Shown here one piece after another: positions 28,050-62,594 of a stretch of 64,000 nt of DNA; position 1 is the first letter of the stretch, and every line of letters starts with the position of its first letter. This DNA comes from Nesterenkonia halophila. GTDB lineage: Bacteria; Actinomycetota; Actinomycetes; Actinomycetales; Micrococcaceae. The notes below the pieces were generated by a model. That model was not told the DNA's origin. It did not search any database and saw only the letters and a program-made list of their open reading frames with translations. Location: NCBI RefSeq assembly GCF_009467795.1, contig NZ_WIAX01000008.1, positions 1 to 64,000 on the forward strand, read 5' to 3'. Both the position numbers and the translations under genes were made by a program.

Positions 28050-29429
28050 ATGGCCACAGAGACCGCACTCGACAAAGTGATCGCCCTGGCGAAGCGCCGC
28101 GGCTTCGTGTTCCAGTCCGGTGAGATCTACGGAGGGTCGCGGTCGGCCTGGGACTATGGTCCGCTGGGCACGGAGCTGAAGGAGAACATCAAGGCCGAGT
28201 GGTGGCAGACCTTCGTCCGCGGACGCGGCGACATGGTCGGCCTGGACTCGGCGATCATCCTGCCGCAGCCCGTCTGGCACGCCTCCGGCCACGTGAAGAC
28301 CTTCTCCGACCCGCTGGTCGAGTGCATCCAGTGCCACCGCCGGCACCGCCAGGACCACCTCGAGGAGGCCTTCCAGGACAAGAAGGGCCGGGCGGCCGAG
28401 TCCATGGAGGAGATCGTCTGCCCCGACTGCGGCACCCGCGGGCAGTGGACCGAGCCGCAGCAGTTCTCCGGACTGATGAAGACCTATCTGGGTCCGGTCG
28501 ACAACGAGGAGGGGCTGCACTATATGCGGCCCGAGACCGCCCAGGGCATCTTCGTGAACTTCAACAACGTGGTGACCTCCGCGCGGCAGAAGCCGCCGTT
28601 CGGCATCGGCCAGATCGGCAAGGCATTCCGCAACGAGATCACCCCGGGCAACTTCATCTTCCGCACCCGCGAGTTCGAGCAGATGGAGATCGAGTACTTC
28701 ACCCGCCCGGACGAGGCGCCGCAGTGGTTCGACCACTGGGTCGAGGCCTGCTACGCCTGGTTCGTCCAGCTCGGCCTGGACCCGGAGAACCTGCGGAAGT
28801 TCGACGTGCCGGAGGAGGAGCGGGCCCACTACTCGGCCGCGACCATCGACCTGGAGTACCGCTTCTCCTTCCCGGGCTCCGAGTGGGGCGAGCTGATGGG
28901 CGTCGCCAACCGCACCGACTATGACCTCGGCTCGCACACCGAGGCCTCGGGCGCGAAGCTGCAGTACTTCGACCAGGGCACCGGCGAGCGGTACACCCCG
29001 TATGTCATCGAGCCCTCCTTCGGCCTGACGCGGGCGATGATGGCCTTCCTCGTCGACGCCTACACCGAGGACGAGGCGCCGAGCGTCAAGGGCGGCGTCG
29101 ACACCCGCATCGTGATGAAGCTGCACCCGAAGATCGCCCCGATCAAGGCCGCGGTGCTGCCGCTGTCGAAGAAGCCGGAGCTGGCCGGCCCGGCGCAGGA
29201 GCTGGCCGACCGGCTGCGCCGCCACTGGAACGTCGAGTACGACGAGTCCGGCGCCATCGGCCGCCGCTACCGTCGTCAGGACGAGATCGGCACCCCGTTC
29301 TGCCTGACCTTCGACTTCGACTCGCTCGAGGACCAGGCGGTCACCGTCCGCGACCGCGACGAGATGACCCAGGAGCGGGTGAGCCTGGACCAGATCGAGG
29401 GCTACCTCGCCGCGCGGCTGCTGGGCTGA
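28050..29429 (+). CDS. glyS: Glycine--tRNA ligase (dimeric type)
   Basis: 459 residues, class II synthetase of the single-chain type. Motif 2 is in [23 protein letters not shown], and ARG-containing motif 3 is near [15 protein letters not shown] zinc-type insertion has [10 protein letters not shown] and [10 protein letters not shown]. The C-terminal anticodon-binding domain includes [20 protein letters not shown]. It charges tRNA-Gly. The ATG follows AGAGGTGAAG. The last 51 bases are repeated 3.2 kb downstream, so whatever integrated here left the gene intact. Confidence 0.96.
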
Positions 29430-29430
29430 G
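29380..29430 (+). repeat. Left copy of the 51-bp glyS-tail repeat (attachment-site-like)
   Basis: The last 50 bases of glyS including its stop codon, plus one base, recur at 32566-32616 with one mismatch (A at 29394 against C at 32580). The copies are in direct orientation and bracket 3,135 bp. A 3'-end gene duplication of this length is the usual mark of site-specific integration by a tyrosine recombinase. Confidence 0.75.
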
Positions 29431-29486
29431 CGGCCGCGTCCTCACATCCGGACAGGGGCATGTGCTGTGTCATGACATAGCGCCCA

Positions 29487-30459
29487 CTCCAGGAACAGCA
29501 CTTAGTGGACACTTCTGCGGCATGGGACGAATACCCGATCATGTCCGCCAACAAGTAAGTCATCGATCGTCCGGCAGATGACGGCCGGGCGCGGTGCGGG
29601 CCTTCTGCGCTGAGCACGGGGTGTCGCGCTCGTGGTTCCACTCGATCCGCCGACTGGCCGCCGAACACGGGCAGACGGCGATGCTGATGGAATCCACCCG
29701 GCAGGCCAGGACGTCGGGGACGGTTGAGTCAGTTCGCCCGCCAGGCGGTGCTGGCCGAACGCCGTCGGCTGCAGGCCGAGGGCAAGGACCACGGGGCAGA
29801 GAGCGTGCTGTTCAGCCTGCGCCGCAAGCATCGCTGCGACTTCGAGCAACTGCCCTCGCGGTCGGCAGCAGAACGGACCTTCGACCAGGCCCAGGTCGTG
29901 GCGCGCAATCGCCACAAACGCCCCAAACGGGCCTATCGCCGCTTCGCCGCGCGATTGCCGAATCAGCGACGGCAGGCGGAAGCGTTCGAACACTGGCTGA
30001 GCACCGGCGAGTCGGTGCTGATCTTCGAGAGCCTCGACGATGCCACCCGCTACAGCCCGGCGGCCTCGGTCGTTGCCAGGGGAGACCTCCCCAGCAGTGG
30101 TGCAGGCCTTCCGCCAAGCGATCCAGGCCTAGTGCCGACCGGTGCTGGCCGACTGCCGGAGCTGGTGCAACCACGTTCGGGCGCACCAGGGTCCGGGGCG
30201 CTGACACCGGTGGAGACCGATGCCCCAGCGGGCACGAGCCGACGAGTCGGTTCCGGGCCAGAGGACTGCTCCACTGCCGCGATCGCTCGATCCGGTGCGG
30301 CAGCCGCTGCAGCGGCCACCTGCTGCACCGGATCGAGCACAGCGATCGCCTGGAGAACTTCGATGCCCAGGGGACTTTCCTCGCCGAGATCGCCTCGCCC
30401 CGCAGGCAGAATCCGGGCATCTCATCCCAGCTGCCATGAGTGTCCACTATGTCCTGGAG
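29487..30459 (+). mobile_element. Decayed IS481-type insertion sequence
   Basis: The ends are inverted: CTCCAGGA...TTAGTGGACACT at 29487-29513, against the complement of AGTGTCCACTATGTCCTGGAG at 30439-30459; the left end has a few extra bases. Inside, transposase pieces are spread over frames. An N-terminal helix-turn-helix (VRAFCAEHGVSRSWFHSIRR) is in one frame. Then AERRRLQAEGKDHGAESVLF and RHKRPKRAYRRFAARLPNQR, like the linker of IS481 transposases, are in the next frame. NHVRAHQGPG, like the NTVRPHR motif, comes after in-frame stops. At 973 bp it is near the 1.0-1.1 kb of IS481 elements but cannot make an active enzyme. No clean target duplication was found. Confidence 0.72.
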
Positions 30460-30554
30460 CTGCATACGGACATGCAGCACCGTGACATCGCGAAAACGGC
30501 GGGACCATGGAGCGTCGCTCGGTGGCGCCCCCGGCGGCCCGAGATCAGACGGCC

Positions 30555-31706
30555 TCACACTGCCACGCGCATGAGCTCCTTGGCCCGGATGACCTGGCCG
30601 GAGTAGTGCCGCTGAGCCTTGGAGATCCAGCGCCCGTCGGAGACCGTGCCCTCGGCCCCGGGTGCCAGGTGGCTGAGCACCAGGGTCCCGACGCCGGCCT
30701 CTTCGGCGACCCGGCCGACGTCCTCGGTGGTGGTGTGGGACTTCTCCAAGTGGCTCAGCACCGCGTCGGGCAGGCCGGCCTGGCGGTAATGCTCCAGGTC
30801 GATCGCCTCGTGCACCAACAGGTCCGCGCTTTCGGAGAGCCGCACCACGTTGTCGCTGCGGGCGGTGTCGCCGGAGAACACCACGGAGCGCTCTTCGGTG
30901 TCGAAGCGGAAGGCGAAGGACGGGAACATCGGCCCGTGCGGCACGAGCACCGCGCTGACACGGACGCGGTCGTCCTCGGAGACTACGAAGGGCTCCATGG
31001 CCGGGGCGGTCTCGCCCAGCGGAGTCGCGCCCACATCGGGCAGTGCGATTTCCTGGACGTCGATCAGCTCGCGGACGTCAGGGATTCCTGAGTCGCGGAG
31101 GAACACATTGGTCGAATAGGCATGGGCGGCGATGCTCAGCCGGGTCAGCTCCGCGAGCCCCGGCGTGGGATTCTCCGGTGCGACCGTCGGCGCCTCGCCT
31201 CCGCCGAAGGCCGGCGGCAGCGCACCGGCCGGGCCGGGGCCGTGCACCGGGACCGTCTCCGTGATGCCGGCGTCGAGCTCGCCGTCGCCCGGGCCCCATC
31301 CGCCGAGCAGGAAGAAATTGTAGAAGTCGGCCATATGGTCGGCGTGGAGGTGGGTGATGTGGATGGCCGCCAGATCCGAGAGCAGCAGTCCGGCCCGGCT
31401 GTACTGGGTCAGCGCGCTGCGGCCGCAGTCGATCAGGTAGTTCCGCCCGTGCACGCGCAGCACCGAGGCGATGCCGGTGTGTCCGGTCTCCAGCGGCGGT
31501 CCGGCCGCCGTGCCGAGCGCCACGAACTCGACGCCGGAGTCGCGGCCGCCCGCAGACCGTGCAGAGGCTGCCGCCGTCGGGGTCGCGGCGCCCCAGAGGG
31601 CAGCGCCGGCGGCACCCACGGAGCCGGCCTGCAGCAGGTTCCTCCGGGAAAGTCCGTGGGGCGCGGAGCCCGGCGGGACGGTGTGGTGCTGATGATCTTC
31701 GGACAT
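30555..31706 (-). CDS. Tat-exported metallo-beta-lactamase-fold hydrolase
   Basis: 383 residues. A twin-arginine signal is present at SRRNLLQAG (residues 20-28) followed by an Ala/Gly-rich hydrophobic stretch to about residue 50. The zinc motif HLHADH has H119, H121, D123 and H124. Later ligands are in VVFSGDTARSDN and LVLSHLAPG. The overall pattern is like arylsulfatase/ribonuclease-Z-type MBL proteins, so it probably hydrolyses a small ester outside the cytoplasm. GGGAGG precedes the ATG. It is the only intact gene within the glyS-bracketed segment and could be its cargo; its codon use is high-GC like the host. Confidence 0.85.
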   Translation of the reverse strand: MSEDHQHHTVPPGSAPHGLSRRNLLQAGSVGAAGAALWGAATPTAAASARSAGGRDSGVEFVALGTAAGPPLETGHTGIASVLRVHGRNYLIDCGRSALTQYSRAGLLLSDLAAIHITHLHADHMADFYNFFLLGGWGPGDGELDAGITETVPVHGPGPAGALPPAFGGGEAPTVAPENPTPGLAELTRLSIAAHAYSTNVFLRDSGIPDVRELIDVQEIALPDVGATPLGETAPAMEPFVVSEDDRVRVSAVLVPHGPMFPSFAFRFDTEERSVVFSGDTARSDNVVRLSESADLLVHEAIDLEHYRQAGLPDAVLSHLEKSHTTTEDVGRVAEEAGVGTLVLSHLAPGAEGTVSDGRWISKAQRHYSGQVIRAKELMRVAV

Positions 31707-32565
31707 GTCGTTGCCTCCCTCATCCGTGGACAGTGGAGTATGAGACTAGGGTCGCGACGTGCGGTGCGCCTTGCCCCTGCGTGCAGGGGATTCGTCCGTG
31801 CACGCTGAGTGGTGTGGGTCACGAAGGTCGTGGCGAGCTCTTCGACGCCGGACGTGACGGATGAGGCCGATACGAAGGCTCGCTCTCTGCTGTTCGTGGC
31901 GCCGTGGGCAACGGTGGCCGGTCGGCGCGCGCGAGGCTCGGGGAACGCAGCCACGGAGCAGCGGAGGCGCTGGATCGCCCTCATCGTCGCACCCTGCGGA
32001 ACGGCTCGGGTTCCCTGCCGTCGATGGGCGCCCCGAACATTCACCCAGACGGCGCCGGAATGCGCGCTGGAGCATGGTCCCTGTCATGCCCGGCGTGGTG
32101 GAATGTGGTCAGTCCCATCGCGTCGTCGCTCTGCCCGGTGCTGTGGGATGTTCCGTTGCGGCGACGTGCACGACGGTGTCAGGGCCCGCTGGGCAGGGCC
32201 CATGAAGGCGATCGCTCGCCCATCCTGTGTGTTGGCGCTGTCGAGAGCGACCGCCGTCGGCGCTGCGCGGCCGGCCTCGGCCACGCGCTCGGCGTCGATG
32301 CCATCGACGTCGACTGAGCGGCCCCTGCCGGCGGGGATCGCAACGTGGTTCTGGCCGAGGGGTGGCAGGGAACCCTGGTCACGGCCGGGGGCACGATCGG
32401 TGGCGGCATCACCGGGGCGGCCGCCGGCTGTCTCGAATGGGGGCGAGCGAAGGAACCCGCCAGGGAGGTGCCGATCCGGACCCCGCCGCCACATGGTCGT
32501 TCGTCGGTCTCGTTCTCATAAGGGTGGTCGAGTTCGGCGCCGGAGTCGTCCCGCATCTCGCGTGC
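31707..32565. other. Region without a supportable gene inside the glyS-bracketed island
   Basis: About 860 bp with only overlapping, compositionally driven frames. Several fragments look protein-like for short runs, for example LVTAGGTIGGGITGAAAG around 32385-32435, but stops and frame changes interrupt them. One long frame runs on into the duplicated glyS tail and so ends in a glyS-like peptide by accident. The segment is best read as decayed DNA of the former insert. Confidence 0.5.
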
Positions 32566-32616
32566 TGAGCCTGGACCAGCTCGAGGGCTACCTCGCCGCG
32601 CGGCTGCTGGGCTGAG
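32566..32616 (+). repeat. Right copy of the 51-bp glyS-tail repeat (attachment-site-like)
   Basis: 50 of 51 bases match the glyS 3' end, in the same reading frame and ending in the same TGA, but with no glyS body before it. It is followed directly by normal chromosome leading to the GNAT gene, so it marks the right edge of the insert. Confidence 0.75.
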
Positions 32617-32743
32617 TCCGACGTCGACGCTCCGGCGGCGGGGCACGGGGCGTCGGCGGCACCGCCCCGCATTGCCCCGCCCGGTGGACGGGACTAGAAT
32701 CGCGTGGCTGACCCGAAGCCGCCTCCCCGATGAAGGACACGCG

Positions 32744-33721
32744 ATGAGCACCATGCCCGAGGACTCCGTCCCGTCGGAGCACGACGACGGCGCGGACCGC
32801 CTCACCCTGAAGTCGGGCCTGACCGTCCGGCCGTGGGCCGAGGGCGACGACCTCGCCCTGCTGGAGGTCTGGGGCGACCCGGAGAACGCCCTGCAGCACC
32901 AGGACCGGGCGCTGCTGCGGCCCTCCTCCGACGACCCCTGGGCCCGCTGCATCGTCGCCGAGGACCACGGCGTCCCGGTGGCCGCGGCGACGATCCTGCG
33001 CTCCTCGCTGCACCCGGACCGGCTCTCCTTCTACGCCGAGGTCGCCGAGGACCACCGGCGCCGCGGCATCGCCGCGGAGATGCTCGAGCTGCTCGCCGCC
33101 GAGGCGGGCAACTGCTCGACGCAGAGCCTCAAGGCCCGCTGCGGCAAGCGCACCGCCGCGCAGTGCTTCCTCAAGGACAACGGCTTCACCAAGATCCAGC
33201 GGTCCCGCCAGGTCGTGGTCAGCGCCGGCGCGCTGGCCCTGCCGGACCTGGAGGGCACCGGTCTGGACCTGGAGGACCTGGCGACCGGGTCGGTCGCGCT
33301 GACCAGCGCCGTCGTCGACTTCTACAACGCCGTCCACGACTGGGACCGTGCGGAGATGACCGTCGGCAAGGCGCAGAAGCTGCTGCTCGGCGACGGCACC
33401 GGCGCCTCGGGAGCCGTGGCGCTGCGCGACCGGCGTCCCGGCGCCGACGGCGGCATCCTCGCCTTCGCCATCAGCTACACGCCCGAGCGCACCGAGGATC
33501 CGGCCGACGTGCTGCTGGGCTGGAACCCGCAGCTCGCCGACGACGACGCAGAGACCGCCTGCCAGTCGCTGCTGGCGCTGCTCGCGGCCCGCTATCCGGT
33601 CAGCGTCGAGGTCGACGACTCGATGGAGCCGCTGACCCGCGTCACCGACGAGCTGCTCTCCGCCGGCCGCGCCGAGTCGGACTTCGAGGCGCTGATCTAC
33701 GCCCGCGACGCCGCGAGCTGA
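32744..33721 (+). CDS. GNAT-family N-acetyltransferase
   Basis: 325 residues. The acetyl-CoA binding motif is in VAEDHRRRGIAAEMLELLAAE (about residues 105-125). The first 30 residues are acidic and unconserved. The C-terminal half (about residues 160-325) is not clearly a second GNAT domain; MSTMPEDS marks the chosen start, with GAAGGAC upstream and TAGAAT (32695-32700) as a likely -10. Substrate unknown. It is the first normal chromosomal gene after the island. Confidence 0.75.
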   Translation: MSTMPEDSVPSEHDDGADRLTLKSGLTVRPWAEGDDLALLEVWGDPENALQHQDRALLRPSSDDPWARCIVAEDHGVPVAAATILRSSLHPDRLSFYAEVAEDHRRRGIAAEMLELLAAEAGNCSTQSLKARCGKRTAAQCFLKDNGFTKIQRSRQVVVSAGALALPDLEGTGLDLEDLATGSVALTSAVVDFYNAVHDWDRAEMTVGKAQKLLLGDGTGASGAVALRDRRPGADGGILAFAISYTPERTEDPADVLLGWNPQLADDDAETACQSLLALLAARYPVSVEVDDSMEPLTRVTDELLSAGRAESDFEALIYARDAAS

Positions 33722-62422: not shown

Positions 62423-62496
62423 CCGGATGTCACGTCCGCACCGGGTCGTCACGCCCGGGCCCGGACGTGACGACCCGGTGCGGACGTGACATCCGG
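62423..62496. repeat. Perfect 31-bp inverted repeat between pepP and the PHP gene
   Basis: The arms 62423-62453 (starts CCGGATGTCACGTCC) and 62466-62496 are exact reverse complements with a 12-nt loop. The word GTCACGTCC or its complement occurs three times. It lies between two divergently transcribed genes, so it cannot be their terminator. Tandem GGCTGGGCAGGGG words follow at once. It may be a REP- or MITE-like unit or a large operator. Confidence 0.7.
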
Positions 62497-62594
62497 GCTG
62501 GGCAGGGGGCTGGGCAGGGGTCGGACCGGGGTCAGCCGGCGAGGCGCGACGTCGTCGGTCTGCGCGGCGCTTCCGCGGGGATACAGTGAGGGGC

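Follow-up and report, generated by a model that had tools for sequence, protein, structure and literature searches.

A 3.1-kb insert between direct repeats of the glyS 3' end in Nesterenkonia halophila

The window analyzed here is a stretch of 64,000 nucleotides from the draft genome of Nesterenkonia halophila (G000; 2.19 Mb, 29 contigs, 65.5% complete), and the features around its glyS gene are listed in Table 1. The original prediction held that the last bases of glyS recur downstream as a nearly perfect direct repeat, and both alignment and a pattern search of the genome bear this out. The two copies agree at 50 of 51 positions, lie in direct orientation 3186 nt apart, and the repeat ends one base beyond the glyS stop codon. 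The duplicated part thus amounts to 51 of the 1380 bp of the gene, at its very 3' end; copy 1 completes an intact glyS. Apart from a 36-bp exact part of this repeat, the 64-kb window has no exact direct repeat reaching 22 bp, and when up to 3 mismatches were allowed the 51-bp pattern was found in the whole draft genome at the two window sites only. No tRNA or tmRNA gene was found in the window.

Table 1. Coordinates of the features at the glyS locus, numbered from the first base of the window
Feature	Position	Strand	Remarks
glyS, glycyl-tRNA synthetase gene	28050..29429	+	Intact open reading frame, 459 aa; 97% amino acid identity to G024
Repeat copy 1, attL-like: 3' end of glyS plus one base	29380..29430	+	
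Insert, 3135 bp	29431..32565	.	Missing here in the 29 other genus genomes compared
IS481-type relic	29496..30456	+	Broken transposase frames; inverted repeats of ~35 nt, 71% complementary
MBL-fold hydrolase gene, RNase Z-like	30555..31706	-	Intact, 383 aa; weak TAT match
DNA with no recognizable gene or integrase trace, 859 bp	31707..32565	.	
Repeat copy 2, attR-like	32566..32616	+	No glyS body; joined to the ancestral flank
Ancestral glyS-GNAT spacer	32617..32743	+	-10-like motif TAGAAT, common to G024 and similar in several genus members
GNAT acetyltransferase gene	32744..33721	+	Intact

A gapped search of the same genome returned a third, partial match to the glyS end (G000, contig C24:149556-149590; 34/38, E 2e-7, 24 exact bases), which falls on the 3' end of an alpha/beta-hydrolase gene. 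This gene end is native in the relative G024, with 2 mismatches within the 24 bases, and since the ortholog there also ends in AARLLG with partly different codons, we read the match as shared codon use rather than as another copy of the repeat. Directly after the alpha/beta-hydrolase gene lie 7.9 kb (L044 1682-9557, G000:C24) that are missing at that place in G024 (L253, G024:C9) and whose frames, by our reading, code among others for a regulator of LacI type and for a solute-binding protein. The end of the alpha/beta-hydrolase gene was considered as an att site; this is possible, but we rejected it, as no second copy of the 24 bases at up to 5 mismatches was found on the same strand in the 18 kb around the site, and there were no integrase seed matches at the 7.9-kb stretch.

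To establish the empty site, the locus was compared with the rest of the genus. The closest of the genomes compared, G024, has a single glyS end followed by TCCGACGTCGACG..., the same sequence that follows copy 2 in the window. When positions 29300-29430 are joined to 32617-32760 they align with G024, the only break being a hairpin insert on the G024 side, and GNAT adjoins glyS at a short distance in all 29 other genus genomes compared. Since G024 has one glyS end and then the flank found here after copy 2, the 3.1 kb represent an insertion, as the original prediction had anticipated of relatives in which glyS would lead directly to GNAT, and the second copy does pass into normal chromosome. 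Most simply, 3135 bp would have been added in the lineage of G000. Outside the last 51 bp, alignment of the glyS body with that of G024 over 1331 positions shows 46 differences and 2 gap positions. Within the 51 bp, copy 1 differs from G024 at 6 sites and copy 2 at 7, whereas the two copies differ from each other at 1; thus the duplication would postdate the split from G024, or the copies have been homogenized. The near-identity of the repeats suggests a recent insertion. GNAT, for its part, may retain its own presumed promoter, since the -10-like TAGAAT in the spacer is conserved with G024.

This comparison also bears on whether the arrangement is an artefact of assembly or binning, in which a draft contig, probably metagenome-derived, fused two sources at a glyS end common to both. 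The incompleteness and fragmentation of the draft are in keeping with such an error, and no second assembly of the species was found. However, both flanks match G024 as a single locus, the repeats differ by one base so that their longest exact overlap is 36 bp, and the G+C content across the insert is level with its surroundings. We consider an artefact to be highly unlikely.

Several other features of the spacer and its neighbors were recorded in the course of the comparison. The glyS of G024 (L040) reads in two frames, and in G016 (L039) glyS is in three pieces, with dus and dgt broken too; the split glyS frames are perhaps sequencing errors. A spacer repeat, GAGAGGCG...GATCGCCGAACG, stands directly after glyS in two tandem copies in G019 (L042) and in one copy in G002 (L041), and a similar sequence was seen by eye between the two glyS ends of G029. 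The window also contains, at 62423-62497, a hairpin of about 75 nt with nearly perfect pairing (DNA fold -52.7 kcal/mol, z -9.3). It belongs to a palindromic repeat family with 5 matches in G000, 8 in G024 (one of these between glyS and GNAT) and none in the other 28 genus genomes.

The insert had been described as a dead IS481-type element, a Tat-exported MBL hydrolase and decayed DNA. Two pieces of the first weakly match the IS481 transposase of NCBIfam, NF033577 (E 4.7e-5 and 0.0048), and its frames are broken, but the scores of 23 and 16 bits fall far under the curated cut-off of 224. Three plasmid records resemble it at 32-35% identity; the annotation given for two of these is integrase core domain protein. 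For the hydrolase, Pfam upheld the MBL fold (PF12706, 1.6e-12; PF00753, 9e-10), but the match to a TAT signal, at 17.3 bits, was under the cut-off of 22.7. Relatives of this protein in the 30 genus genomes (E <= 1e-30) are only 42-43% identical and come from its own genome, G003 and G008, while its plasmid matches are to Streptomyces, Rhodococcus and other plasmids, the best being 59% identical over 84% (Streptomyces). Pfam, NCBIfam and PHROGs yielded no convincing family for the remainder of the insert, in agreement with decayed DNA. Of 197 family genomes, with the two best candidates per genome scored, 58, the own genome among them, matched the insert outside the window, in each case by the hydrolase gene only; the rest of the insert DNA had no match in these genomes or in the plasmid collection. 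The 3.1-kb insert is horizontally acquired and mostly decayed, with a cargo foreign to most of the genus.

The position of the IS relic is relevant to a further alternative, an origin unrelated to islands, by tandem duplication or by an unusual transposition that duplicated 51 bp of its target. Formally, the locus can be described as a 3186-bp unit plus one truncated extra copy. The relic, however, is internal to the insert and has no contact with the 51-bp repeats, and GNAT, not insert DNA, follows glyS in the 29 other genus genomes. A target duplication of 51 bp is also far longer than in known transposons, and we hold an origin of either kind to be most improbable.

Integrase-mediated insertion doubles the end of a gene up to the stop codon and leaves the gene whole, and the insert was searched for an integrase or its traces. 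The open frames of the insert were searched with Pfam and PHROGs, and four pieces of it with NCBIfam, and no integrase, excisionase or phage structural family was found. The sole PHROGs match was the hydrolase, and a permissive Pfam scan (E up to 10) produced weak matches only, with no consistent meaning. The original prediction had also suggested looking in relatives for larger islands, with an integrase, at the same glyS end, and none was found among the loci sampled. The 162 glyS loci comprised the window, those of the 29 other genus members, 49 from further relatives, 80 from named genomes and 3 from viral contigs; three loci of the group of 49 lie on the same contigs as ones from named genomes and are counted twice. 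Each locus was searched downstream for a repeat of its own glyS end, except for 4 whose downstream DNA was too short, which left 158. A convincing repeat was present in one, the window (51 nt, E 1.7e-22), and in none of the other 157, where the next-best repeats were of 18-23 nt (best E 2.9e-4), as noise predicts over so many tests. Integrase matches downstream of glyS occurred at 2 of the 162 loci, about 6 and 18 kb away, and when positions were compared by eye none of the integrase matches listed for the genus was near glyS. The 22 integrase seeds were chosen by eye and all came from this genus, and very different integrases may therefore escape them.

The test for own-end repeats was added because a profile of the GlyS C-terminus, used on 395 genomes of the family and 327 of the order, two sets that overlap, would miss short att copies. 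With this profile, a second end adjoining glyS was found only in G000 and G029. Genomes with extra matches were followed up (all 45 others in the family; 10 of 11 in the order, the eleventh, G097, being in the family set), and the other second matches lay at a great distance from glyS or on another contig; the majority were weak and fell within long reading frames, and a few were further glyS-like genes. The profile had no match in 3 family and 11 order genomes and no more than a weak match in G118 and in G362. Nor was a convincing attP-like sequence found in phages or viral contigs. The best 20 of 33 phage records returned by a DNA search with the glyS end were all weak (best E 0.02), and at the protein level 5 faecal phage records without annotation matched, 3 with a whole or nearly whole glyS and 2 in which the end of the record cuts the match. 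Among plasmids, 16 records matched the glyS end, 11 of them annotated as glycine-tRNA ligase, and the 3 viral loci that matched it are whole glyS genes. Patterns of the glyS end had no hits on viral contigs; in controls the first pattern recovered both window copies, while the third matched just 78 of 229 glyS loci, so that the patterns miss many codon spellings. One viral contig of 88 kb (IMG/VR; L052 8765-10144) carries a full-length glyS, 65% identical, along with frames that we read as terminase-like and portal-like, and this is possibly a phage-encoded glycyl-tRNA synthetase.

We tentatively prefer, at close to even confidence, the explanation that the insert is the reduced relic of a mobile element that entered by a site-specific crossover in the last 51 bp of glyS. 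The near-perfect direct repeat ending one base after the stop codon and the intact state of both flanking genes are consistent with this, and a duplicated glyS end fits an island since such elements choose sites at the very 3' end of genes. According to one report, many attB sites lie within protein-coding genes, and islands often reconstitute the gene that they enter (PMC12884075). In the proposed sequence of events, a mobile element whose attP bore a copy of the glyS 3' end would have crossed over once, site-specifically, within the final 51 bp of the gene, as in tyrosine-recombinase islands. The element's copy would then rebuild the end of glyS (copy 1), and the original end would be shifted downstream (copy 2). 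The integrase would have acted in trans or been deleted later, because the repeat appears so fresh that an integrase gene would not have had time to decay beyond recognition, and internal reduction would have left the cargo hydrolase and the IS relic. Against an integrase relic stand the lack of an integrase in the insert, of any other island at a glyS end among the sampled loci and of a convincing attP-like sequence in phages or viral contigs. The tyrosine-recombinase reading that had been put forward is thus plausible but unproven: the insertion, the duplicated 3' end and the whole glyS agree with it, but no integrase and no recurrent use of the site were found. Since we looked for both and found neither, we do not class the insert as a tyrosine-recombinase island, although it may still work like one.

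The second glyS end of the congener G029 points to a different route. This genome has a diverged, native-like glyS 3' remnant of 30 codons (L033 15168-15257; G029:C33:151167-151256), which lies 42 nt after the glyS stop codon and is followed by GNAT, with no insert. The original prediction had named relatives with both copies and no insert as evidence against an island, and G029 goes part of the way, having a second remnant and no island, but its two copies are diverged. Compared with G014, the glyS of G029 is 95% identical over its first 150 nt and 92% over the next 150 nt, 71% at 600-750, 79-87% beyond that and 64% in the last 60 nt. This pattern suggests a mosaic, and it is suggestive rather than proof since the last glyS codons vary throughout the genus. 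We read it as foreign DNA having displaced the 3' part of glyS and left the old end behind. G029 thus suggests that recombination alone can duplicate a glyS end in this genus, or else it bears the scar of a lost element.

The insert of the window may likewise have arrived as incoming DNA with a glyS 3' segment beside foreign DNA, added by ordinary recombination and with no integrase involved. A circular molecule could do this by a RecA-type single crossover. Homology-facilitated illegitimate recombination could do so too, anchored by homology in glyS and joined illegitimately 51 bp short of the gene end. Such an origin would account for the missing integrase and for a cargo that is already decayed, and it has G029 as a possible parallel. 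Precedents are found in two papers: in E. coli, single crossovers of a circular molecule gave partial target duplications of 109-950 bp in 14 sequenced clones (PMC3240628), and in Vibrio such a mechanism was put forward for modules after which the old immunity genes persist downstream (PMC5361080). The same texts describe the illegitimate form as rare, at 3e-10 per recipient cell in E. coli (PMC3240628) and orders of magnitude below normal recombination in frequency (PMC5361080). Moreover, no mosaic break was seen in the glyS body relative to G024; identity is even along the gene but lower in the last 60 nt, at 0.89 against 0.98 in the preceding 60. A donor with the insert beside a glyS that is 50/51 identical at its end would be needed, and none was found with two candidates per genome scored, plasmids matching the hydrolase gene only. 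A remnant of 51 of 1380 bp would also be a narrow outcome for a random junction. We therefore regard acquisition by recombination as possible but somewhat doubtful. It is mainly because of G029 that we do not rate the integrase-based explanation higher. A broader form of the latter, in which an integrase family yet to be seen uses the glyS 3' end in this genus for attachment and the insert and the second end of G029 are both relics of its elements, appears unlikely.

If an integrase did use the glyS end, an aminoacyl-tRNA synthetase gene would join the protein-coding attachment sites, giving actinobacterial genetics a landing site that is both conserved and essential. The present locus amounts to a single reduced insert in a single draft genome, a small curiosity, and a duplicated gene end does not by itself prove an integrase.

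CIME-like (cis-mobilizable) relics and cryptic genomic islands derived from tyrosine-recombinase elements occur at the 3' ends of genes. The insert differs from these in that no integrase-bearing relative was found at the glyS site and in that its recombination is deduced from the repeats, and it differs from known island targets in that no report of glyS as an integration site was found in the open-licence literature searched. With single-crossover or illegitimate integration, it shares a partial duplicate or displaced remnant and a makeup free of integrase, as such events are described in PMC3240628 and PMC5361080, and the congener G029 resembles an event of this kind. Unlike those cases, no mosaic was seen in the glyS of the window relative to G024, no donor was found, and the duplicate lies at the very end of the gene. 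In common with CIME-like relics and cryptic islands, the insert has direct end repeats, one of which completes a gene, a cargo with no integrase, and an empty site in a relative (G024); the general behavior of att sites is described in PMC12884075.
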